Origin: Chthoniobacterales bacterium
Lineage (GTDB): Bacteria; Verrucomicrobiota; Verrucomicrobiia; Chthoniobacterales; UBA10450
Direction: 5' to 3'
DNA: 64,000 nucleotides
Assembly: GCA_025935755.1 (NCBI GenBank)
Contig: JAICUQ010000003.1
Span: 1 to 64,000, forward strand
Below the pieces are notes generated by a model. It did no database searches. It was given only the letters and a program-made list of their open reading frames with translations, and had not been told where the DNA came from. Of this stretch, positions 2,442 through 15,361 are shown piece after piece (position 1 is the first letter of the stretch; every line of letters starts with the position of its first letter). Position numbers and translations under genes: made by a program.

Positions 2442-2575
2442 AGAATGTTTTTCTTTGGTTTTCAGGTTTCAGATTCAGATCAGCGCGGCGCCTTTTTTTG
2501 CAGCCGCACAAATGCGTTTCTGTTGGATAAAGCGGAAACCACGGTGAAAAGCCGCCAACTTTTTTAACGCCCCCC
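2442..2575 (-). promoter_or_regulatory. Shared leader, family 1, copy A
   Basis: The segment upstream of the 777-aa gene aligns by eye with those at 4865-4990, 8513-8645 and 9979-10115. Read on the minus strand, the shared blocks are AAAA(A)nTTGGCGG, TTTCCGCTTTA, CAGAAAC (CAAAAAG in one copy) and TTTGTGnGGCT, then an A-rich run to ATG. It could be a promoter for the adjacent ECF sigma factor or a structured 5' UTR; sequence alone does not decide. Confidence 0.55.
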
Positions 2576-2611
2576 GGACGACCTTCGGGGAACAATCGCT
2601 TCGCATGAGCT

Positions 2612-2638
2612 GCAGCCGGGGTCATTGACTCCGGCTGC
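2612..2638. repeat. Intergenic hairpin, copy 2
   Basis: An 8-9 bp stem GCAGCCGG/CCGGCTGC sits immediately after the stop of the frameshifted GYWKNH gene and is preceded by CAATCGCTTCGC, as in the copies at 45-70 and 3370-3391. There is no T-run. Confidence 0.55.
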
Positions 2639-2649
2639 TTTCTGGAATC

Positions 2650-3359
2650 TCAATCGGAGCCCTGAGCTTTCCGTATCAATGACGCGAGGTAATGTCGGGC
2701 GCGGCCGGGCGGTGGGACGTGGACTCGGCAATCGCATTGCGGAGCGCACAACCCGCCACCGTTGTAAAGACCCAGCGTTCGCGCATAAGAGGTCAGCGGC
2801 ATGTGACCGTTGCCGGCTGGCGGGATGATCAGATTCCCGATCGAGGCATCGATCGCCGCCAGCGTTTGCGCCACACAGCTTCCATCCACGCCACTGGCAA
2901 TATTTAGTTTCGCGGCGATTTCCTGATGTGCCAGCTGAACCAAGTTATTACCACGTGGCGCTTGACGTAGAATGGATTCTAATTCCTGCCGGTTATAAGT
3001 GTGGTTGCCAAGCTGCAATTGATTCACCGGCCACTGCTCATAGTTCTTCCAATAGCCTGATCCCAAAACACAACCACTGGTCGTGGGAGCAGGAGTTGCT
3101 GTCGCAGTAGGAGTAGTAATCGCATTTGGCGTTGCTTTGGTGACACGGTAGGCGTTGCGGTTGCCGACACAGTGGGTGTTGCGGTAGCTGTAGGTGTTGC
3201 CGTAGGCGTAGCAGTTGCGGTGGGAGTCGCCGTCCGAGTTACAATGGGATTCGGTGTTGGGCTTGGCTCCGTACATGCTGGAAAGCTGGCTTTAACACTC
3301 GTTAGCGAGCCGGTCCCTACGGAATAGCCACCCCCGGGCAAAACGATCGCTTCCGCTGT
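2650..3359 (-). pseudogene. Frameshifted, 5'-truncated GYWKNH-domain protein
   Basis: The remnant is split over two frames. The 5' part (from about 3341) reads a short Ser/Gly segment and a Thr-Pro-Ala linker, then goes out of frame near 3138-3145. From there another frame continues the linker and a complete GYWKNYEQWPV domain to the stop at 2650, closely matching the C-terminus of the 777-aa protein. There is no signal peptide, and the 5' end abuts a hairpin repeat, so the N-terminal half is missing. A sequencing error in the repetitive linker could explain the frameshift but not the missing export signal. Confidence 0.65.
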
Positions 3360-3369
3360 ACATGCTGCA

Positions 3370-3391
3370 GCCGGGATCCGAGGATCCCGGC
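3370..3391. repeat. Intergenic hairpin, copy 3
   Basis: A 10-bp near-perfect palindrome GCCGGGATCC/GGATCCCGGC is preceded by CGATCGCTTCCGC. It lies between the GYWKNH remnant and the end of the S74 protein gene. Confidence 0.55.
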
Positions 3392-3451
3392 CACATTCTT
3401 GAACAGTTTAAGTTCCTGACGCCTCAGAGCGTTGGTCCTCCGATTTAGTGT

Positions 3452-4864
3452 TTATGGAATATTCCGAGCCAGGGTTTGTAAAGGTCTACGAAGCTCGAGC
3501 TGCGTACTCACTCTTTGGATTTGCGCTGCTTGCTCCTTCACCGTCGCCAAAAGTCCTGCCATTCCTGCTTCCAGGTTTTTCACCTTCTCCTGCTCTGCGA
3601 CAAACGCCTGGTGCTCTTTAAGGAACTCGTTAAGCAGCATTACGTTGATGGCACTGTAACGGACGGTCTCGATTTCGCCCTTCGCATTGCGGATCGCCAG
3701 GTTTGGATCCACCTCGGCTACCTCTTCAGCAATCAGCCCATAGTCGAGAACCTGGTTGCGATCGATCTCCTTCTTGTAGCGATACGTGACAGGTTTGAGA
3801 CGGTAAAGCGTTTCGCTGGCATCCTGCATCGCTTTAATGTCTTCCTTGTGCCGACGCGATGAGGTGAGATGACCAAGTAAACCGGTATTCAAATCAACAG
3901 TAACAGTGTCGGCGAAACCACCGCTTACCGACGTGGTGTTAATGTTGTGGATGTAAGTGTGATAACTCTCGTTGGGATCCCGTGCCATCTCCTGTTCTCC
4001 GATATAGACGTTGCCGGTTCCCGTTCTCAGACCATAACCGGCGCGATTGCCAATCGCCGTATTTGCCATGGCGTCAGTTTCCCCATTGTCTGCGCTCAGC
4101 GCCAACAGGCCGAAAGCGCAATTGAAACTGCCATCCACATTATACAACATCGCTCTATCGCCGACTGCCGTGTTGCCATCACCGCCCAGGCCGGTGCCCC
4201 ACTCTGCACCCGTATAACAAAGCGCCCGATAGCCCACGGCCGTATTGGCGCCTTGGAGTTCGTAGGAAGCGCCGGTTTTATAAAACAGAGCTACGGCGCC
4301 CACAGCCACGTTGCCACTGCCAGTGCTGTTGTTCTGAAGGGCAGCATCCCCCATCGCCGTATTTTCCATGCCAATGGTATTGCCGGAGAGCGCGTCACCG
4401 CCAAAGGCGATGTTGCCCCAGCCGGTGGTGTTATCTTGCAGCGCGCTAGCGCCCATGGCCACGTTGTATGAACCGGTGGTGTTGCTCCAAAGCGCGCTCT
4501 CCCCAAACGCATTGTTGGCCGATCCAGTCGTGTTGTTCTGGAGTGAATACGCGCCTACTGCGCTATTGCGCCATCCAGCCATGTTCGAAGAAAGCGCGTA
4601 ACTACCATTGGCGATATTGTAGCTGCCTGACGTGTTCGCCGACAGTGCGTGCCAACCGTGAGCAGTATTGTGCTGTCCGGTCGTGTTGATATTGAGCGCG
4701 TCTACGTTCTCGGCCGCGCTGTTGTTATTTCCACGATCTTCGCCGAGTCGCGGGGTTGCGGTCGGTACAGGCGTGGGGGTTGGTACCGGCCTTGCCAAAG
4801 CAGTCGATAAAACAGCAAAGCAGGCAACTGCGAGCAGAACCAACGTGATCTTTTGATTTTTCAT
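3452..4864 (-). CDS. Secreted YadA-head-like protein with C-terminal S74 chaperone domain
   Basis: The 470-aa product has a signal peptide (1-24) and a short PTPTPVPTATP linker. Residues about 45-320 carry degenerate repeats of 14-16 residues of the NTALGxxAL/NTTGSxNTA type, as in trimeric adhesin heads. From about 334, SSRRHKEDIKAM followed by LxPVTYRYK, DYGLIAEEVAEV and NAMLLNEFLKEH-like motifs identify an intramolecular chaperone of endosialidase (Peptidase_S74), with a terminal coiled coil. In characterised S74 proteins the domain trimerises and cleaves itself off before the first Ser; that is expected here but not shown. The paralogue is at 55627-56745. It has a family 1 leader. Confidence 0.88.
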   Translation of the reverse strand: MKNQKITLVLLAVACFAVLSTALARPVPTPTPVPTATPRLGEDRGNNNSAAENVDALNINTTGQHNTAHGWHALSANTSGSYNIANGSYALSSNMAGWRNSAVGAYSLQNNTTGSANNAFGESALWSNTTGSYNVAMGASALQDNTTGWGNIAFGGDALSGNTIGMENTAMGDAALQNNSTGSGNVAVGAVALFYKTGASYELQGANTAVGYRALCYTGAEWGTGLGGDGNTAVGDRAMLYNVDGSFNCAFGLLALSADNGETDAMANTAIGNRAGYGLRTGTGNVYIGEQEMARDPNESYHTYIHNINTTSVSGGFADTVTVDLNTGLLGHLTSSRRHKEDIKAMQDASETLYRLKPVTYRYKKEIDRNQVLDYGLIAEEVAEVDPNLAIRNAKGEIETVRYSAINVMLLNEFLKEHQAFVAEQEKVKNLEAGMAGLLATVKEQAAQIQRVSTQLELRRPLQTLARNIP

Positions 4865-4990
4865 GAATGTTTCCTTTCATTTTTGAGTGTTTGAATTTGC
4901 GCAGCGTTCGTCTTTAGCGGCTACACAAGTGTTTCTGCCCGCTAAAGCGGAAATTGCGGCTAAAGCCCGCCAAGTTTTTCACCGCCCACT
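4865..4990 (-). promoter_or_regulatory. Shared leader, family 1, copy B
   Basis: On the minus strand it carries AAAAACTTGGCGGGCTTTA, TTTCCGCTTTAGC, CAGAAACACTTGTGTAGCC and an A-rich stretch ending at ATG, in the same order and spacing as copies A, C and D. Confidence 0.55.
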
Positions 4991-5180
4991 ATGCAGCTGT
5001 GGAATCTGCTCGTGTGTCAAAAGGCAGCCCCCAAGGTGGCGACGATCCTTCTCTTCGATCTTCTCTGCCACAGATGATGAAGTGCTCCCCGCCTGAAGGA
5101 TCGAATTGTGGATCGGGAAATTGATCGAGTTGCAGGTACTTCTCCGAATGCGTATCGAACCGCTTTTACCCGTAAAGCAT

Positions 5181-5206
5181 GCAGCCCCGAGACCGTTCGG
5201 GACTGC
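5181..5206. repeat. Hairpin downstream of the 1085-aa propeller gene
   Basis: A stem GCAGxCCCGA/TCGGGxCTGC with one mismatch lies about 50 bp past the stop at 5255. It is related in position and sequence (GCATGCAGCC) to the hairpins at 2612 and 3370. The rest of 4991-5254 shows no gene I can support. Confidence 0.45.
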
Positions 5207-5254
5207 AGCTATCAGTAGGGTGTTGGTCAGGTATACGCTCTCTTCTCGCAACGG

Positions 5255-8200
5255 TCAGCGATTCTTCGTCCTCACCTTGATGACGTTCGAATTTGGGCTG
5301 GTCCCATTCGTATTGTATGCCCGGACCCGATAGTAATAGAACGTACTTGGATTAAGTCCCAACACATCGCGACTCGTAGCATTTCCGACGTCCAGGTTTT
5401 GGTATCCCGGTATATAACTGTTGAACACCGAGCTCGTGGACACGTCTAGCCGGTAACCCGTCGCTTCGCTCACACTGCTCCAGTTCGCAGTGAAGCGAAA
5501 CGTGTTGATATTTGTTGGTTTCAGCGCCGTTGGCGCAGCTGGGACTTCCGTCGGTGTCGCGGTCGGCGTAACGGTAGCGGTCGCGGTTGGAGTCGGGGTT
5601 GCAGTAGCCGTTGGCGTTGCTGTCGCAGCAGGGGTTGCGGTTGGGGTCGGTGTCGGTGTCCCTCCGCAGGGAAGCAGCCACCTGCCTGCGTTCACTATCA
5701 GTTTCCCCCAATCGCCGCTGTGACTAGTATTACCAAGATAGGCGGTGATACCCACCGTGGTGTGCCCACCGCTGACCGGCCGGTACCCGACCAATGCATA
5801 ACCACCCGGAAGAGCCGCCGCCACACCCGTGGCGCCCGCGGCAAGTGTTACCACCTGGACAAAGCTGCAGTTGAGGCTGGTAACACCAGCCATCAACGGG
5901 TGCTCCGGATGAAGGATGTAGCTTGTCAGTTCGGTAGCGTCTCCCTCCGTCGAGTAGTTATACGGGTTGTAGTTGCCGGTTAGCCATCGGCCGTTGATTG
6001 AGCCGCGAGGCGTCGGCCCGTAAAAGCTCATCGCACATTGGACCACTACACCACCGCCATCCGCATAGTCGGCCAGGTTATCGCCAAGCACAGTGCCATC
6101 AGCAAATGAGCCGTTGTTAAACGGGATCACAATGTCGTATTGCTGCAGTTGTGCCAGAGTGGGAGTGCTCAGACGCGCATCGAACAAGTCCACACTGCTA
6201 ACGTCTCGGTCGGCCAGTATTTCGTCGCGCAACTCGGCTGGCTGCCGCCCATTAAAATCAGCATAAGCGATGAGGACCCGGAACTGACACGAAGCCGGTG
6301 TGGGGGTCGGCGTGGCTGTCGCCGTGGGCGTAGGCGTGACGGTAGCTGTTGCCGTTGGAGTGGCAGTCGCTGTTGCGGTAGCGGTAGCCGTGGCTGTCGC
6401 GGTGGATGTAGGCGTGACGGTAGCTGTTGCCGTTGGAGTGGCAATCGCTGTTGCGGTAGCGGTAGCCGTGGCTGTCGCGGTGGGCGTCGCCGTCGGCGTA
6501 GGGATTGCGCAGGGTGCCGTTCCGATGACCAACGCACCCGGAGAACGCCCTACCGCGAATCTGGCAACGACTGTGTTACTGAACGTGTCAATGACAGAGG
6601 CAGTGTTGCTGTTGCCATTGCTCACGTAGGCGCTGACGCCATCTGGTGTCACCGCCACACCACCGGTTCCGCTGAACGGAACCATGTTCACTGTAGCTAC
6701 CACAGTGTTGCTGAACGTGTCGATGACCGACACGGCGTCGACGAACCTGTTCACATAGGCGCGGGTGCCGTCTGGAGTGATCGCCACCTCGGTGGCACCG
6801 TAAAGTTCCTGCCCGAAGGTAGCTACAACGTTGTTGGTGACTGTCTCGATGACAGAGACATAGTGGGGGTTAAAATTGCCGCCACCTGCCACATAGACGA
6901 GATTGCCGTCCGGCGTCACTGCCACACCGTTGGCGCCTGTATCGACTTCTACTGTGGTTATCAATCCTCCGTTGGAAGCGTCAATGATAGAGAGCTGCCT
7001 GTTGTCCCTGCCTTGATTAACCACATAGACGCGGGTGCCGTCCGGCTTCACCGCCAGGCCGTAGACTGCACTATAGGCGCCAATGTCCCAGGTGGCTACC
7101 AGTGTGTTGTTGAACGTGTCGATGACGGAGAGGGAGTTGTAGTTAGTTACATAAAGACGCGTGCCGTCCGGACTCACTGCGAGGTTACCGGGTTGGCTCG
7201 CAAGTGTTATCGTGTCCACCACCGCATTGGTCGAGGTGTCGATCACCAGGACGTTGTAGTGGATGAAATCGACGCTCGCATGGCTAACATACAGACGCGT
7301 GCTGTCCGTGTTTAGCGCCAGGTCCTCGGGGGTGCTGCCAACCGGAACTCTTGTTACCAGAGTGTTATTGGCGGTGTCGATCACCGAGACATCGTTATCG
7401 TTCCTGTTGGCAACATAGGCGAGAACCATAGGGCATTGGTGCGTTGCACCGACAAAGTTCCCCATCGCAACAGGAGAAGCATTAACATTTATTGTGTTCA
7501 CGACTGCGTTAGAGCCGGTGTTGATGACGGAGAGAGTGTTGCTGCCCTGGTTGGCCACATAAGCGCGAGTCCCGTCAGGATTCAGTGCCACGCCGGTCGG
7601 GCTGTCGTTGACCGCAACCGCGGCTATCACCGCGTTCGTGGAGGTGTCGATCACCGACACATTGTTGCTGAGTTGATTCGCGACATAGACACGAGTGCCG
7701 TCCGGATTTACTGCCACACCGGTGGGACTCTCGTTGACGGTCACCGTAGCTATCACTGCATTAATTGATGTGTCGATGACGGAGACAGTGTTGCTCCCTT
7801 CGTTGGCCACATAGGCGCGGGTGCCGTCCGCCTTCAGCGCCACGCCATACGGATGTGAGCCAACCGCCACCGTCGTCACGACCGTATTGCTGGCGGTGTC
7901 GATTACCGAGACATTGTTACTGCCTTGATTAGTCACATAGGCGCGGCTGCCATTTGGGGTGAGTGCCACGTTAATCGGATTTAAGCCAACCGTTGTTGTG
8001 GCGATTACGGTGTTATTGGAGGTATCAATCACAGAGACATTGCCGCTATCGAAGTTAGTCACATAGGTACGCGTATTGTCCGGTTTCACCGCGACGCCGC
8101 GCGGACTGCTCCCGACCGCCACCGTTGCTATTACTGTATTGCTGGCGGTGTCGATTACCGAGACATCATTACTGCCGGAGTTGATTACGTAGGCGCGGGT

Positions 8201-8512
8201 GCCGTCCAGCTTTACCGCGGCGCCCATCGGGGCGTTGCCGACGGCCACTGCATTTATTACAGTGTCGTTCGAGGCATCGATCACTGAGACATTGTTACTG
8301 CCCGAGTTAGGTACGTAAGCGACGACAGCTGGGACTGGCATCGCGGCCGCCATCGATTCGGCTTCCGCCTTGGGGGGCAGGCTTCTGCTGGGGCCGCGAT
8401 TGCCGGACTGTGCCAGCGCAAACGGGATCGCGCACACAGCGACAAGCAGAAGCAGATAAGATGCGCTCCGAATGAGGTGCGCCCTGGTGTTGCGGTCTGT
8501 TTGTTTTTTCAT
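5255..8512 (-). CDS. Secreted YVTN beta-propeller protein with GATase-like and fibronectin III domains
   Basis: The 1085-aa exported protein has a signal peptide (1-35) and then about 14 repeats of about 42 residues at 60-665 with the YVTN/YNCE signature (VSVIDTxxNTVxATVAVG, PxGVAVxPDGTRAYVxN). A Thr-Pro-Ala linker (about 668-740) leads to a GATase-like domain from about 742 ([11 protein letters not shown] ... GRWLLPCGG). A second linker and a fibronectin type III domain (about 998-1085, ending KVRTKNR) follow. It shares the GATase-like domain with the 777-aa protein. YVTN propellers are known from surface-layer proteins; the ligand is unknown. The first linker contains a 78-bp tandem duplication. 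Confidence 0.9.
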   Translation of the reverse strand: MKKQTDRNTRAHLIRSASYLLLLVAVCAIPFALAQSGNRGPSRSLPPKAEAESMAAAMPVPAVVAYVPNSGSNNVSVIDASNDTVINAVAVGNAPMGAAVKLDGTRAYVINSGSNDVSVIDTASNTVIATVAVGSSPRGVAVKPDNTRTYVTNFDSGNVSVIDTSNNTVIATTTVGLNPINVALTPNGSRAYVTNQGSNNVSVIDTASNTVVTTVAVGSHPYGVALKADGTRAYVANEGSNTVSVIDTSINAVIATVTVNESPTGVAVNPDGTRVYVANQLSNNVSVIDTSTNAVIAAVAVNDSPTGVALNPDGTRAYVANQGSNTLSVINTGSNAVVNTINVNASPVAMGNFVGATHQCPMVLAYVANRNDNDVSVIDTANNTLVTRVPVGSTPEDLALNTDSTRLYVSHASVDFIHYNVLVIDTSTNAVVDTITLASQPGNLAVSPDGTRLYVTNYNSLSVIDTFNNTLVATWDIGAYSAVYGLAVKPDGTRVYVVNQGRDNRQLSIIDASNGGLITTVEVDTGANGVAVTPDGNLVYVAGGGNFNPHYVSVIETVTNNVVATFGQELYGATEVAITPDGTRAYVNRFVDAVSVIDTFSNTVVATVNMVPFSGTGGVAVTPDGVSAYVSNGNSNTASVIDTFSNTVVARFAVGRSPGALVIGTAPCAIPTPTATPTATATATATATAIATPTATATVTPTSTATATATATATATATPTATATVTPTPTATATPTPTPASCQFRVLIAYADFNGRQPAELRDEILADRDVSSVDLFDARLSTPTLAQLQQYDIVIPFNNGSFADGTVLGDNLADYADGGGVVVQCAMSFYGPTPRGSINGRWLTGNYNPYNYSTEGDATELTSYILHPEHPLMAGVTSLNCSFVQVVTLAAGATGVAAALPGGYALVGYRPVSGGHTTVGITAYLGNTSHSGDWGKLIVNAGRWLLPCGGTPTPTPTATPAATATPTATATPTPTATATVTPTATPTEVPAAPTALKPTNINTFRFTANWSSVSEATGYRLDVSTSSVFNSYIPGYQNLDVGNATSRDVLGLNPSTFYYYRVRAYNTNGTSPNSNVIKVRTKNR
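6333..6488. repeat. 78-bp tandem duplication inside a Thr-Pro linker
   Basis: Units 6333-6410 and 6411-6488 differ at one internal base and at the junction end. They encode 26-residue blocks of the Thr-Pro-Ala linker in the YVTN protein. The unit length is a multiple of three, so copy-number change would keep the frame. Confidence 0.8.
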
Positions 8513-8645
8513 AAATGTTTACGTGGTTTTTTGTTGTTGTATTGGATGTGTGGCGCGCACAGCTTTGGAGAGCCACACAAATTCTTTTTGTCAGGTAAAG
8601 CGGAATTCGTGATTGAAACCCGCCAATTTTTTTGATGGCCCACTG
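8513..8645 (-). promoter_or_regulatory. Shared leader, family 1, copy C
   Basis: On the minus strand it has AAAAAAATTGGCGGGTTTCA, ATTCCGCTTTACC and ATTTGTGTGGCT, then an A-rich run to the ATG of the YVTN protein. It is the most divergent of the four copies. Confidence 0.5.
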
Positions 8646-8745
8646 CGAGCTTGGATCTCACAGAGTTTGTGAGGCCACTCCTACAAACGCAGAGACCGTG
8701 GAGCGCTGTCCCTGCCGTCACTGTATTGCTATAAAGCTCGACGTC

Positions 8746-9978
8746 TTAGTGCCGCCCGTGAGGCCTTGGTGTGGGTGTCGGTGTTGGCGTAGGAGATGGT
8801 GCGGCCTGCACCTCGACAGCTCCGATATCAGCGCGACCATTCACCACCCGCGCAAAACCGGGGCCGCGTTGATCCATACTCAGCGCCGGATCACTCCCGT
8901 CGATTGCTGGGCTATCCGATGCCGGTAGATGCGTGAAGGTCGGACCGCCGTTATTTTGCAACGGGCCAAGCTTAGGGTCGGTGTTGATTCGATCGCCAGT
9001 GGCCGTTAGACAACCGCCACCAGCGTCGCTGCTCAAATTGTAGCCAAGGGAGGTTACGGGGCCGAGTTGTTGAACATTGTAAATGTTCTCGCCCACAGGA
9101 CCCGCGTTGAAGATCGTGTTTCCAATCTTAACCGTTCCGCCCTCATTGACGATGCCGCCGCCGTGCGCGTTGAACCCGGTGCCGCAAAAGTTGCCGCTGA
9201 ATGTGTTGTTAGTGATCGTCAGTGTAGCGCCTGACCAGTTATAGATCGCGCCGCCAGAGGCAGCCGAATTGCCGCTCAAAGTACTGTTGCTGATTGTCAG
9301 TGCCCCTATGTTGACGATGGCACCGCCGAAGTTGTAACCGTTGTCCGAGTTGCCGCTCAGAGTGCTGTTCGTGATCGTCACGGTTCCCGAATCGTTAAAG
9401 ATCCCTCCGCCTGGCCAGGCCGAGTTGCCACTAATTGTGCAGTTGCTGATCGTCAGCGTCGCGTTGCCGCCGAACCCGTCGTTGTAGATGCCGCCACCGC
9501 TGCCCTGATCCGCCGTGTTGCCGCTGATTGTGCAGTTGTTCAGCGTCAGGTTCGCATGATCATTGTAGATGCCGCCTCCCCAATAGTTGGGCAGCTCCGC
9601 CGACCCGTTTAAAATGGTCAGACCGGAGATGGTGACCGTCTTACCGGGGCTGATCTCGAAGACGCGGCTGACGTGCCAGGAGGACACGCCCAGGTACGCG
9701 GGGTAACCGGCTTGTGGAACCCAGCGGATGGTGACGCTTTTGTTTACGACGAGCTCGCCTAAAGACGGCATCAGACCGAGCGTGTACCCGCCCAACTGGG
9801 GAGCGAACTCGATGGTGTCGCCATCATTGGCATCGACTAACGCCTGGCGCAAGCTTGTCTGGACACCCAAGCCGTCGCCGACTTCGGTAACTGTGATCAT
9901 CGCGCCGCGAAGGCCGGGCAATCCAGCGGCCGCTGCGCCGAGCAACGCGATCATAAGAATTATTCGTGTGTGTTTCAT
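8746..9978 (-). CDS. Secreted right-handed beta-helix protein with choice-of-anchor Q-type C-terminus
   Basis: The start at 9978 was chosen for its signal peptide (MKHTRIILMIALLGAAAAG); the longer upstream reading frame runs through the leader. The 410-aa product has an ordered series of beta-helix rungs (TISNCTISGNSA, TITNSTLSGNSD) at about 95-290, as in polymorphic outer-membrane/pectate-lyase-like proteins. It then has LQNNGGPTFTHLPASDSPAID and DQRGPGFxRVxNGRxDIGAVE, typical of the choice-of-anchor Q class, and a short Pro-Thr tail ending RPHGRH. A surface or secreted role is inferred; no catalytic residues were recognised. Confidence 0.88.
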   Translation of the reverse strand: MKHTRIILMIALLGAAAAGLPGLRGAMITVTEVGDGLGVQTSLRQALVDANDGDTIEFAPQLGGYTLGLMPSLGELVVNKSVTIRWVPQAGYPAYLGVSSWHVSRVFEISPGKTVTISGLTILNGSAELPNYWGGGIYNDHANLTLNNCTISGNTADQGSGGGIYNDGFGGNATLTISNCTISGNSAWPGGGIFNDSGTVTITNSTLSGNSDNGYNFGGAIVNIGALTISNSTLSGNSAASGGAIYNWSGATLTITNNTFSGNFCGTGFNAHGGGIVNEGGTVKIGNTIFNAGPVGENIYNVQQLGPVTSLGYNLSSDAGGGCLTATGDRINTDPKLGPLQNNGGPTFTHLPASDSPAIDGSDPALSMDQRGPGFARVVNGRADIGAVEVQAAPSPTPTPTPTPRPHGRH

Positions 9979-10115
9979 AGATGTTTTCGTTTGTGTGCTT
10001 TGTTTACCTTGTTGCGATTCGCGCAGCATTGCTTTGGCAGGCCCGCAAATCTGTTTCTGTCGGGTAAAGCGGAAATCGCCGTTAAAACCCGCCAAGTTTT
10101 TCATCGCGCACCGCC
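9979..10115 (-). promoter_or_regulatory. Shared leader, family 1, copy D, between beta-helix and sigma genes
   Basis: On the minus strand it reads AAAAACTTGGCGGGTTTTAA, GATTTCCGCTTTACCCG, CAGAAACAGATTTGCGGGCC and an A-rich run to ATG. It lies in the divergent region next to the ECF sigma gene, which makes a regulatory link plausible. Confidence 0.55.
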
Positions 10116-10152: not shown

Positions 10153-10743
10153 ATGACGATTCCCCCCGCTTCCCAGCAAGAAGTGACTAGACTGCTCGCC
10201 GATTGGAGCGGCGGAGACCCGAGCGCACTCGAAAGATTGATACCGCTCGTTCAACCGGAATTGCATCGGCTGGCGCGTCATTACATGAGCCGGGAGGCGG
10301 TCGGGCATACGTTGCAAACCACCGCGCTTTTGAATGAGGCGTACCTCCACCTGGTCGACGATCCGAGACGCAATTGGCAAAACCGCACGCATTTCGTAGC
10401 GGCAGCCGCCCAATTAATGCGACGCATCATGGTTGATCATGCGCGTGAACGACGTGCGCAGAAGCGTGGCGGCGGCGCAGTTAAAGTCGAGCTGGACGAC
10501 GCTGCGCTGGTGACTGAACGCAGATCGGAAGAATTGCTGGCGTTGGATGAAGCGCTGGAGAAACTCGCGGCGCTGGATCCACGCAAAACTCAAATTGTTG
10601 AGCTGCGTTATTTCGGAGGTTTAACCGTAGAGGAGACAGCTCGATTCCTGCAGCTGTCTCAGCGGATGGTAGAGCGGGAATGGATGATGGCAAAGGCGTG
10701 GCTTTACCGTGCGTTAAGCGGGCAGGAAGCCAATGACATCTGA
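10153..10743 (+). CDS. ECF-type RNA polymerase sigma factor (SigX6-like)
   Basis: The 196-aa product, taken from the ATG at 10153, has sigma region 2 at about 20-95 (LERLIPLVQPELHRLARHY ... RRIMVDHARERRAQKRGGG) and region 4 at about 130-190 (LDPRKTQIVELRYFGGLTVEE ... VEREWMMAKAWLYRAL). This fits the TIGR02999 group often encoded beside Ser/Thr kinases in Planctomycetes, Verrucomicrobia and Acidobacteria. Its end overlaps the kinase start by 11 bp (ATGACATCTGA), so translation is probably coupled. No anti-sigma gene is visible; the kinase may fill that control role. The divergent secreted-protein cluster is a candidate regulon. Confidence 0.9.
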   Translation: MTIPPASQQEVTRLLADWSGGDPSALERLIPLVQPELHRLARHYMSREAVGHTLQTTALLNEAYLHLVDDPRRNWQNRTHFVAAAAQLMRRIMVDHARERRAQKRGGGAVKVELDDAALVTERRSEELLALDEALEKLAALDPRKTQIVELRYFGGLTVEETARFLQLSQRMVEREWMMAKAWLYRALSGQEANDI

Positions 10744-13700
10744 GCGCTGGCAACAAGTCAACGAACTGTTTCAGTTAGCGGCAGAACGTACTCCTGAAGA
10801 AAGGACGGCGTTTCTCCAAACAGCCTGCGGGGATGATGAAGGCTTGAGGCGAGAGGTAGAATCCCTGATCGCTTCTTACGAGCGAGCGGCGAATTTTATT
10901 GAATCACCGGCCTTCGAAGTTGTTCCCGAACTTCTGACCAACGAGCGGACAAGCGCGATCATCGGCGAATCGATCGGTCGCTATCAGATCGAAGCCCTGC
11001 TTGGTGTCGGTGGAATGGGCGAGGTGTTCCTGGCACGAGACGAGCAACTCGGACGCAAAGTGGCGCTCAAATTTCTCCCGGAACGATTGACGGCAAACAA
11101 AAGTCAATTGAGCCGGTTCAAAAGCGAGGCGCGCGCCGCTTCAGCGCTGAATCATCCAAATATTCTGACCGTCTACGAAATCGCCACCGAAGGAGACCGG
11201 CACTTCATTGCGACGGAGTTCATTGAAGGTGTAACGCTGCGCACATCGCTGTCGCGCGGCAGAATGAGCGTACAAGACGCGCTGGATGTTGCGGTGCAAG
11301 TCGCCTCGGCCCTCGCCGCTGCACATAAAGCTGGTGTAGTGCATCGCGATATCAAGCCGGAAAACATCATGATCAGACCGGACGGTTACGTGAAGATCCT
11401 CGATTTCGGCCTTGCGAAACTAACTGAACAAAATCCGGCGGTAATCAATCGGCGCCTAACGATAACAAACACATTGCACACGTATAGCGGCCTGCTGCTA
11501 GGCACTCCGCGTTACATGTCTCCGGAACAAGCGCGTGGCGAACCGGCGGATGCACGCTCAGATATTTGGAGTTTGGGCACTGTCATTTACGAGATGGTTG
11601 GCGGTATCCCGGCGTTCTCCGGCGCTACCCCGAGTGATTGCATCGCTTCCATCCTGAAAACCGAAGCGACTCCTCTGTCGAGCGTCGCACCGGCTGTCCC
11701 GGCCGAACTGCAATCGATCTTGCAGAAGGCATTGCTCAAAGACAGGGATGAACGTTACCAACTAATTGCTGAGATGCTCGCAGAGTTGCGGGCTTTAAAA
11801 GCAAATTTGGAACGCGCAGCGTCTGCGCCCAAGAGCCGGCCTGCATGGATGTGGACAGCTGCTGCTGCTGCGATTGTTCTCACTGCCATCGGTGGATTGT
11901 TTCTCATTCGCTACCGCAGCTTACCGCCTGTTATGACGGCGTCTGGCTGGTCTTCCGCCGATCAGACGGACCTGACTGCCTTAACAAGTATACCGGACAA
12001 GAGCATTGCGGTACTTCCGTTTGAAAACCGGAGTCGCGATACAGATAACGCGTACTTTGCCGATGCCATTCAGGATGAAATCCTGACGCGGTTATCGAAG
12101 ATCGCAGACCTGAAAGTGATCTCCCGCACGTCAACGCAGCATTACAAGACCGTGCCCGCGAACGTGCCCGACATCGCAAAACAACTTGGTGTTGCTTACA
12201 TTCTGGAAGGCAGCGTCCAAAAAAGCAGCGACGCGGTGCGGGTAAACGTCCAGTTAATCAAAGCAGCTACTGATGCCCATGTTTGGGCAGATACGTTCGA
12301 TCGCAAATTAACCGACATCCTAGCTGTTGAGAGTGAGGTCGCAAAAGCGATCGCCGATCAGTTAGGCGCCAAACTCACGGGACAAGAAGAGCAAACTATC
12401 GCTGCCAAGCCAACGGACAATCCTGACGCGTACGATGCTTACCTGCGTGGCCTGGCTTTCAGTCTCAAAACGGCAAACACGAACACGAATGTGGTTAATG
12501 CGCAGAAATACCTTCGGGAAGCGGTTCGGTTGGACCCGAAGTTCGCGCTGGCATGGGCGCTTTTGTCATTCGTGGAATCTCGCGGTTACGGAACAGTCAC
12601 TTTGCAACCGACAGACGCCCTGCGTGAAGAAGCGCGGCAGGCCGCGGAGACGGCTCTATCTCTTCAGCCCAACACCGGGGAGTCCATATTAGCCATGGGT
12701 TTCTACCATTATGCTTGTCTGAAGGATTACGACACCGCGATACGTTATTTCGAACAGGCGCGCCAGTTCCTGCCCAATAGCAGCCGGATTCCTGAATCGC
12801 TCGCTTATGTAACGAGAAGGCAGGGAAGATGGGATCAGAGCGAGACTTACTTCAATGAAGCCGAGCGGTTAGATCCACGCAATGTTTCGCTGCTTACCCA
12901 GCACGCATTATCTTACAAAGATCGCCGGCTTTTTCCGGAAGCATTACGGAAGCTCGAACAGATTCTCAATATCACTCCGGATGATGTTGATACGATCGTA
13001 GAGAAAGGAGCGATCGCCCAAGCAGAGGGCGACCTTACGCGAGCTGCGGCTCTCCTTAGTTCTGTGCAACCCGCAGCAGACGACACTAACGCGCTAGAAA
13101 CACAAGCTTACCAGGCTATCCTGGAACGCAGGCCGACACCAATCATCTCGCAATTAAAAACGGTACTCGCTAACCCTGAAGCGGCGCTCGGTTTTTACAA
13201 AGGTGGATTAAGGTTTTGGTTAGGCTGGGTCCAGGATGTTACCGGCGATCACGATGCCGGAAATGAAAGCTGGCAACAAGCACGTCGCGAACTGGAACCT
13301 TTTCTCATAGAACAACCGGAAAACCATATCCTTCTTGGCGATCTCGCGCTGACGGCCATGAGCCTTGGTGACAAGACCGCTGCATTCGATTTCGCGGAGC
13401 GAGCGATTGCTTCGCTTCCTGTCCAGAAAGACGCCGTACGTGGCCCGGCACCAATTGAAATTCTGGCGCGCGTGGCGGCGAAATTCGGCGAATCGGATCG
13501 CGCCATCGCAGCTTTGGAGAAGCTTTTGTCTGTTCCTTATTCAGGGCCACTCGGTCCCGGCGCGCCACTGACTCCTGCCCTGCTCCAGCTGGATCCGATG
13601 TTCGACGCGTTACGGAATGACCCGCGTTTCCAGAAACTCGTTAAGGCAGCGAAGGAACCAGCTGCGACAACTATTTCCGCCAAATCCATTGCGGTTCTTC

Positions 13701-15361
13701 CGTTCGAAAACCTCAGCCGCGATCCGGACAACGGATTCTTTACCGACGGCGTGCAGGATGAAATTCTGACCGACCTGGCGAGGATCGCGGAGTTGAAAGT
13801 GATCAGCCGCACTTCAGTCATGCAGTATAAGAGCGGAGCGAAACGCAACCTGCGGCAGATCGGAACCGAACTCGGCGTGGCCCATGTTTTGGAAGGAAGC
13901 GTGCAACGGGTTGGGAATCGGGTGCGAGTAAATGCCCAATTGATCGATGCGCGCACGGATATGCATCTGTGGGCGCAAACTTACGATCGCGATCTTGCCG
14001 ATGTTTTCGCTATTCAAACCGAGATCGCAAAAACCATCGCTGATCAGCTCCAGGCAAAGCTTTCACCGAGCGAGAAGAGTGCCATTGAACAGCCGCCGAC
14101 AACCGATGTCACTGCGTTCAACCTTTACTCGCACGCTAAAAATCTTTTTCTGACCGCGTTCGCCGGGCCTAACGGGCGAGCCGATTTGCTGCAAGCGGCC
14201 GATCTGCTGAACCAGGCGCTGGCGCGTGATCCACAATTTTTCCAGGCGTATTGCCAACTCGCGTTTACTGAGATCAACATTTACGGCGTTCTGGATCATA
14301 ACCCCGCGTACCTGGCGGCAGCCGAAGCAGCTCTCAAATCTGCAGCTCGCCTTCGTCCGGATGCTGGCGAAACGCATCTCGCGCGCGCTCGTAATCTTTA
14401 TTGGGGTTACCTCGATTATGACGGTGCTCTGCGTGAGTTGGAAATTGCCCGGAAAAGTCTACCCGGCGAGGATTGGATCTTCTCGTTGAAAGGATACATC
14501 GAGCGGCGACAGGGGCGCTGGGAGGAGTGCATACGCGATCTCGAACGCGCTACGGACCTCGACCCTCGCAACGTTCTAACACTTCAGCAGTTGGCATTAA
14601 CTTACCAACAGCTTCGGCGGTATGCGGAAGAGAAATCGACCTACGAGCGGATCCTGGCTTTTCAGCCTAACGATCCAGTGACGAAATCCAGTCACGCGTT
14701 CGTGGACCTCGATTGGAAAGCTGACACTCGACCGTTGCATGAAGTAACCGATTCAATTCGAAACAAGAATCCTGCTGCGGTGCCCGCCATCGCTGACAAC
14801 TGGCTTCTGTGCGCGTTCGCTAAGCGCGACGCTAGCGCAGCGAAGGAAGCATTGGATGCGTTAGGCGAAAATTCAACCTCGTTAGGTCCAATCGTCGACG
14901 TCAGATTCAGTCGTCCATTTATGGAAGGAGTGATTGCCAGGATGGCCGGGGATGATGCCAGGGCGCGCTCCGCGTTCATCGCCGCACGCGCAGAAGCGGA
15001 GAAAATTGTCAATGCTCAGCCAAAATATGCACCGGCGTTGTGCGTCCTGGCTTTGATTCATGCAGCCGTCGGAAACAGAGAGCAAGCGCTACGCGAAGGG
15101 CGACGGGCGGCGCAACTTTATCCAATCGAAAAGGATGCGTTCCTCGCGACCGCGATGGTGAAGTATTTGGCAATGATTGCTGCGTGGGTTGGCGACAAAG
15201 ATCTCGCCTTTGAACAGCTGGCGATCGCCACCGGGGAGCCGGGCGATCTTAGCTATGGCCAATTGAAATTGATGCCGTTCTGGGATCCACTCCGCGACGA
15301 TCCACGATTCGACGAGATCGTGGCATCACTCGCTCCGAAGCAGTCGGCGTTAAAGCGTTGA
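10733..15361 (+). CDS. Membrane Ser/Thr protein kinase with two TolB-N/TPR modules
   Basis: This 1542-aa protein has an N-terminal helical segment (1-80) and a Hanks-type kinase domain (about 84-355). The Gly-rich loop GVGGMGEVF, K113, HRDIKPEN (204-211), DFGLAK (224-229) and GTPRYMSPEQ are all present, so it should be active. One transmembrane helix lies at about 371-392. The outer part holds a TolB/FlgO-like N-terminal domain (about 423-550, SIAVLPFENRSRD ... VAYILEGSVQ), TPRs (about 560-960), a second TolB-like domain (about 982-1110, SIAVLPFENLSRD) and more TPRs to the end. The second half looks like an internal duplication. It probably senses an extracytoplasmic partner and phosphorylates the cognate sigma factor or another target. 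Confidence 0.92.
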   Translation: MTSERWQQVNELFQLAAERTPEERTAFLQTACGDDEGLRREVESLIASYERAANFIESPAFEVVPELLTNERTSAIIGESIGRYQIEALLGVGGMGEVFLARDEQLGRKVALKFLPERLTANKSQLSRFKSEARAASALNHPNILTVYEIATEGDRHFIATEFIEGVTLRTSLSRGRMSVQDALDVAVQVASALAAAHKAGVVHRDIKPENIMIRPDGYVKILDFGLAKLTEQNPAVINRRLTITNTLHTYSGLLLGTPRYMSPEQARGEPADARSDIWSLGTVIYEMVGGIPAFSGATPSDCIASILKTEATPLSSVAPAVPAELQSILQKALLKDRDERYQLIAEMLAELRALKANLERAASAPKSRPAWMWTAAAAAIVLTAIGGLFLIRYRSLPPVMTASGWSSADQTDLTALTSIPDKSIAVLPFENRSRDTDNAYFADAIQDEILTRLSKIADLKVISRTSTQHYKTVPANVPDIAKQLGVAYILEGSVQKSSDAVRVNVQLIKAATDAHVWADTFDRKLTDILAVESEVAKAIADQLGAKLTGQEEQTIAAKPTDNPDAYDAYLRGLAFSLKTANTNTNVVNAQKYLREAVRLDPKFALAWALLSFVESRGYGTVTLQPTDALREEARQAAETALSLQPNTGESILAMGFYHYACLKDYDTAIRYFEQARQFLPNSSRIPESLAYVTRRQGRWDQSETYFNEAERLDPRNVSLLTQHALSYKDRRLFPEALRKLEQILNITPDDVDTIVEKGAIAQAEGDLTRAAALLSSVQPAADDTNALETQAYQAILERRPTPIISQLKTVLANPEAALGFYKGGLRFWLGWVQDVTGDHDAGNESWQQARRELEPFLIEQPENHILLGDLALTAMSLGDKTAAFDFAERAIASLPVQKDAVRGPAPIEILARVAAKFGESDRAIAALEKLLSVPYSGPLGPGAPLTPALLQLDPMFDALRNDPRFQKLVKAAKEPAATTISAKSIAVLPFENLSRDPDNGFFTDGVQDEILTDLARIAELKVISRTSVMQYKSGAKRNLRQIGTELGVAHVLEGSVQRVGNRVRVNAQLIDARTDMHLWAQTYDRDLADVFAIQTEIAKTIADQLQAKLSPSEKSAIEQPPTTDVTAFNLYSHAKNLFLTAFAGPNGRADLLQAADLLNQALARDPQFFQAYCQLAFTEINIYGVLDHNPAYLAAAEAALKSAARLRPDAGETHLARARNLYWGYLDYDGALRELEIARKSLPGEDWIFSLKGYIERRQGRWEECIRDLERATDLDPRNVLTLQQLALTYQQLRRYAEEKSTYERILAFQPNDPVTKSSHAFVDLDWKADTRPLHEVTDSIRNKNPAAVPAIADNWLLCAFAKRDASAAKEALDALGENSTSLGPIVDVRFSRPFMEGVIARMAGDDARARSAFIAARAEAEKIVNAQPKYAPALCVLALIHAAVGNREQALREGRRAAQLYPIEKDAFLATAMVKYLAMIAAWVGDKDLAFEQLAIATGEPGDLSYGQLKLMPFWDPLRDDPRFDEIVASLAPKQSALKR

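Follow-up and report, generated by a model that had tools for sequence, protein, structure and literature searches.

Four leaders before exported-protein genes as probable promoters of a neighbouring ECF43-type sigma factor in a Chthoniobacterales bacterium

Introduction

Positions 1 to 64,000 of contig JAICUQ010000003.1 (assembly GCA_025935755.1, Chthoniobacterales bacterium), a stretch of 64,000 nucleotides (nt) called the window here, contain four genes for exported proteins. Each is preceded by a similar leader, and the row lies beside a gene pair for an extracytoplasmic function (ECF) sigma factor and a Ser/Thr kinase. What are these leaders, and what reads them? A sequence-only reading of the window had considered common control likely. 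We compared the leaders, the sigma factor and their relatives across genomes. The comparison indicated that the leaders are very probably promoters of the neighbouring sigma factor, which appears to be of the kinase-activated ECF43 type and would switch on the four genes together. ECF43 sigma-kinase pairs are known from few studied cases, and our literature search turned up no account of the promoters they use in this phylum. The loci found here would also link a kinase pathway of eukaryote-like character with exported proteins whose repertoire changes quickly, in soil bacteria that are known here only from metagenomes.

Results

A two-box core in the four leaders

The four leaders were found on the minus strand at the positions given by the sequence-only reading: A at 2442-2575, B at 4865-4990, C at 8513-8645 and D at 9979-10115. 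Each directly precedes an exported-protein open reading frame (ORF), at 108-2441, 3452-4864, 5255-8512 and 8746-9978, respectively. Among the blocks that the same reading had listed as shared, TTGGCGG and TTCCGCTTTA were exact in all four leaders and CAGAAAC in three (CAAAAAG in leader C). TTTGTGnGG was less general than claimed, being exact only in leaders A and C, with related letters in B and D. The spaced block pattern, allowing up to three mismatches, occurred four times in the 3.67-Mb source genome, always in these leaders, and the reversed-pattern control gave no match. The leader core was TGGCGGGTTT-N13-CGCTTTA, located 77-85 nt upstream of each ATG. Core A (TGGCGGCTTT-N13-CGCTTTA, 2528-2557) and core B (TGGCGGGCTT-N13-CGCTTTA, 4943-4972) carried one mismatch each. 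Core C (TGGCGGGTTT-N13-CGCTTTA, 8596-8625) and core D (10065-10094), which points away from the ECF gene, were exact; all four lie on the minus strand. Classic ECF promoters, such as those of sigma-E, SigW and EcfG, have two boxes 16-17 nt apart, and the same two-box architecture was observed here upstream of the predicted target genes.

The sigma factor and its kinase

The ECF gene (10153-10743, plus strand) is divergent from leader D, as had been noted from the sequence, and its end is overlapped by the kinase gene (10733-15361, plus strand). The sigma protein matched PF07638 (E 3e-55) and TIGR02999 (219.8 bits, cut-off 126). The DAED of region 2.2 was replaced by an uncharged, threonine-containing motif, QTTA (residues 55-58, codons at 10315-10326 of the plus strand), which is the position of the ECF43 phospho-threonine in the passages of PMC13147305. 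Among the 91 relatives used below, this motif was QTTA in 48, QATA in 23, QATG in 10, QPTA in nine and QSAA in one. The adjacent gene encodes a Hanks-type kinase (Pkinase E 6e-49) with a glycine loop, HRDIKPEN, DFG, one predicted transmembrane segment (residues 374-392) and a TPR-rich C-terminal part. Taken together, the sigma domains, the QTTA motif, the adjacent kinase and the kinase layout suggested that the sigma factor was ECF43-like.

Passages of PMC13147305 and PMC8999054 describe QTTA as the ECF43 consensus, with its threonine phosphorylated in EcfP. As far as those passages go, the window pair resembles EcfP-PknT of Vibrio parahaemolyticus and EcfK-PknS of Xanthomonas citri, in which a QTTA-type motif replaces DAED and the sigma gene adjoins a Hanks-type kinase gene. 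The layout of the window kinase is that of PknS, with an N-terminal extension, the kinase domain, one membrane segment and a TPR part. However, the targets differ: a type VI secretion system is described as the target of EcfK and polymyxin-resistance genes as those of EcfP, whereas the predicted targets in the window are only the neighbouring exported-protein genes. The passages on these two systems give no promoter sequence for the ECF43 group.

The core follows orthologous sigma genes

A model based purely on the sequences of five leaders detected additional copies within the family. The pattern TGGYGGGTTT-N13-CGCTTTA with at most one mismatch had 26 sites in 83 genomes, compared with four for the reversed pattern. 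Seventeen sites were beside an ECF orthologue and three were window copies A-C. The others were one in genome G014, one in G053, one in a relic locus of the source genome (contig C106) and three apparent chance matches. When the exact pattern was searched across the order, with 17-nt spacing also allowed, 23 sites were found in 21 of 213 genomes (reversed control, one). Sites scattered inside genes, or without a link to exported products, would have spoken against common control, and this distribution did not refute it: 20 were beside an ECF gene, and the others were window copy C and the sites in G014 and G053.

Sigma proteins were collected at E 1e-40. The search gave 115 matches (summed) in 47 of the 83 genomes, from which the best 91 were used and the weakest 24 left out. 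Among the 21 orthologues with at least 63% identity, all from soil Verrucomicrobia, 20 had the core pointing at the divergent gene. The spacing was 16 nt in 17 of these cores and 17 nt in three (G034, G068 and G074). The exception was G041, where only the -35 half was kept and the divergent gene had no export signal. The relic second locus on contig C106 (L112, 11500-14500) has a kinase gene broken into several frames and an exported-protein gene that is still open. No ECF gene was found there, and the -10 box of its core ends in C instead of A.

The mismatch-pattern matches at L037, L047 and L054 were taken as chance because phmmer gave no ECF or kinase match there.

Paralogous sigma factors have their own core versions

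An expectation-maximization motif search on the 330 nt preceding each of the 91 ECF genes returned one motif, with a log-likelihood of 915 versus 115 and 118 for mononucleotide shuffles. It scored at least 10 bits in 83 of the 91 regions. Unlike in classic ECF promoters with AAC, the -35 core changed with the sigma clade, being GGCGGG, GGTGGG, GATCAC, GGCCCC, GTCCGT or GCGCGG. The -10 boxes of the paralogues (CGTTTA) were close to the usual CGT. A matrix was then trained only on the 70 paralogues (below 60% identity), with the 1% level set from Markov-shuffled regions. It recovered 20 of the 21 window-clade regions, compared with one of 21 on the opposite strand, and exceeded 12 bits in four of 686 natural control strand-segments versus 20 of the 21 window-clade regions. 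Leaders A-D, which were absent from the training set, scored 24.1, 20.8, 16.0 and 25.3 bits, respectively. The single opposite-strand region at the 1% level gave no clear signal of ECF autoregulation; eight of 21 passed the 5% level. In distant phyla, the family matrix found six of 68 upstream regions versus five of 68 on the opposite strand, and we therefore make no claim for these phyla.

At four loci (L132, L140, L147 and L154), a comparable two-block sequence, but of a different class, was seen upstream of the ECF genes, TGAGCC.AT followed about 11 nt later by TTGCG or TTGCT, directed toward the divergent gene. This type of sequence was not above the opposite-strand background across the whole distant set.

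Sigma residue 174 changes together with the -35 letters

Covariation between the sigma protein and its promoter was analysed in 83 pairs. Under three weightings, E174 and R171 were the top two of 196 columns by corrected mutual information with the -35 core. The best pairing was E174 with letters -32 to -30 and R171 with -34 and -33, in the numbering of this analysis. Residue 174 was E or Q with GGCGGG, M or T with GGTGGG, K with GGCCCC, R with GATCAC, L with GTCCGT and D with GGCGTG; its codon in the window gene is at 10672-10674 of the plus strand. The helix register was fixed via a second ECF protein (from G066), SigH and SigE alignments and a joint alignment. E174 aligned with R171 of sigma-E, and R171 of the window protein with G168 of sigma-E. 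In the sigma-E complex, as given in part of PMC6713349, R171 contacts -31/-32 and G168 contacts -34. Within that account, the behaviour was like that of classic sigma-E, in that the letters placed at -32 to -30 co-changed with the residue that aligns with sigma-E R171. In a search of the PDB, a profile of 13 ECFs gave only sigma-F; matches of the window ECF alone to designed repeat proteins were taken as spurious.

The co-change was also examined on a tree that excluded the helix and had 15 changes at residue 174 and 23 changes of the -35 core. Eight of the 15 changes fell on branches where the core changed, with 1.9 expected (p 7.6e-5), and residue 174 ranked first of 164 columns. G031 and the second G024 gene lie within the K/GGCCCC clade (support 0.89-0.91) and yet have GGCGGG with Q and E. 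Judged from this placement, they are an independent repeat of the residue-promoter combination of the window clade. The promoter letters thus appear to depend on the cognate sigma factor in the sense of a correlation, by co-change only.

These results bear on the possibility that the core is a two-part operator of another DNA-binding regulator and the ECF gene a mere neighbour. Two blocks at a fixed spacing would also suit a dimeric regulator, and the G014 and G053 sites have no ECF gene found beside them. However, the core follows the ECF orthologue in all but one of the 21 loci, paralogous ECFs have their own core version, and the -35 letters co-change with a sigma residue whose aligned counterpart in sigma-E is a known -35 contact. 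We consider the operator very improbable. The conserved position, the fixed spacing, the paralogue architectures and the co-change of residue and -35 letters all argue for common control through the neighbouring ECF factor.

Several observations weigh against promoters read by this sigma factor. In G014, an exact site precedes a fn3 protein and no ECF match reached the cut-off (in a 90%-complete assembly), and G053 has a site with no ECF gene on its contig. Eight of the 91 upstream regions scored below 10 bits. In the reverse test, the matrix from the 21 window-clade regions found just seven of the 70 paralogue regions; this is compatible with narrow specificity, yet it is also a weaker result. 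R171 ranked only 107th of 164 in the co-change test. In G066 and at the second locus of G073, the gene called on the divergent side encoded another sigma factor and not an exported protein. Finally, the window core, with GGCGGG and CGCTTTA, is not the classic AAC (-35) and CGT (-10). Part of the review PMC8103513 describes AAC/CGT as an early hallmark of ECF promoters that no longer defines the class.

Predicted targets and the exported slot

A regulon model, built from 22 promoters that came mostly from the loci described above, was run on 18 genomes. In the source genome it gave the four leaders and the C106 relic. In the other genomes it gave one site per ECF gene of the clade plus the G014 site, and the next matches began at E 0.01. 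Since these searches found only local targets, the sigma factor appears to serve just the adjacent genes, and the predicted regulon is local. Within the window this regulon has expanded to four copies of the promoter; the arrays of the relatives yielded no second core.

A simple hydropathy rule classed the products of 76 of the 91 divergent genes as exported, compared with 16 of the 31 ORFs that the window has outside this region (Fisher p 5e-4, calculated on 76 of 90 because one region lacked a called ORF). The rule is lax, and several of the misses were near-threshold signals or genes cut by contig ends. At least seven unrelated exported families were found downstream of the window-type promoter, in an order that varied between relatives. 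G050 and G053 (L100 and L101) were 95% identical from the promoter to the ATG and 91-95% identical over the first 150 coding nt, after which they could not be aligned. Promoter and signal peptide thus appear nearly identical while the mature proteins appear unrelated. G070 and G077 (L107 and L111) showed a similar, less sharp pattern. All four are metagenome-assembled genomes, so assembly error is a possible cause of the differences in the mature part. We give an even chance to a broader model, in which each ECF43 pair of these soil Verrucomicrobia would be a private switch for one adjacent exported slot, the several pairs of a genome would be kept apart by their -35 letters (largely through residue 174), and the slot would be a cassette site that exchanges mature proteins while promoter, leader and signal peptide stay constant.

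At L105 and L108 (G066 and G073), the gene behind the promoter encodes a second, RpoE-like ECF sigma factor, which hints at a sigma cascade. In G066 this sigma factor is fused to the apparent start of a former exported protein.

RNA structure in the leaders

Folding was compared with shuffles for 26 regions downstream of the core. The z-score was below -1 in 19 of 26 and below -2 in 12 of 26, with a mean of -1.9. Possible hairpins of the 5' untranslated region were located on the minus strand in leader A (2483-2509, z -3.1) and in leader C (8547-8579, z -1.9), the latter an 8-bp inverted repeat read from the sequence. Leaders B and D had z-scores of about 0 and -0.7. RNAalifold on the alignment of the 26 regions gave no consensus pairs. 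An Rfam search of the region gave chance matches far below the gathering scores, and the leaders had no match even at E 10. The sequence-only reading had proposed a check for RNA structure, and the answer was divided: most leaders folded better than shuffles, but no consensus pairing was recovered. The leader may often form a hairpin, which was kept only as a secondary feature because RNAalifold found no pairs.

A leader that works chiefly as a structured regulatory RNA (riboswitch or attenuator), with the promoter elsewhere, would agree with the folding z-scores and with stems of differing letters that recur at about the same place. However, this is very unlikely given the absence of Rfam matches and consensus pairs and the values for leaders B and D. 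In addition, conservation is highest in letters upstream of the hairpin, and these co-vary with a protein residue.

Proposed mechanism

For the leaders as promoters of the ECF43-type sigma factor, the following mechanism is proposed. The membrane kinase would sense an extracellular signal through its TPR-rich part and phosphorylate the threonine of the QTTA motif. RNA polymerase with the phosphorylated sigma factor would then read each leader promoter through the -35 box GGCGGG(TTT) and, 16 nt away, the -10 box CGCTTTA. The putative transcript would begin with an untranslated region of about 80 nt, which may often form a hairpin, and the four neighbouring exported-protein genes would be switched on together. 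In EcfK, according to the passages of PMC13147305, a threonine-to-alanine change at the QTTA site still works and linker sites matter, so the QTTA threonine need not be the sole switch. The loci form a ready set of matched sigma factor and promoter pairs with differing -35 letters, and ECF43 specificity is therefore directly testable in the laboratory.

Exported proteins of the window

The four genes lie on the minus strand. Protein A (108-2441) has 777 amino acids and no Pfam family, and protein B (3452-4864, 470 amino acids) has a C-terminal Peptidase_S74. Protein C (5255-8512, 1085 amino acids) combines a YVTN beta-propeller with fn3, and protein D (8746-9978, 410 amino acids) has a choice-of-anchor Q domain. 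The sequence-only reading had assigned the proteins to different families. B and D had no match to A, C or each other in a phmmer comparison. However, a homologous part is common to A and C (phmmer about 1e-64), so the four proteins are not all different.

The partial homology of A and C, the four genes in a row and the exported-gene arrays at the same locus in relatives would suit leaders that are leftovers of tandem gene duplication with no shared function, but this is highly improbable, since the core is kept before B and D, which match neither A nor C and have different signal peptides, it stays constant across species while the mature proteins change, and its last -10 letter is altered in the C106 relic, where no ECF gene was found and the kinase is broken.

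An ORF of 208 amino acids at 2650-3276 on the minus strand, which has no leader, resembles the C-terminal end of protein A and looks like a gene remnant. Repetitive coding sequence for Thr/Pro/Ala-rich linkers was observed in the genes of proteins A and C, at 541-780, 5560-5660 and 6300-6510.

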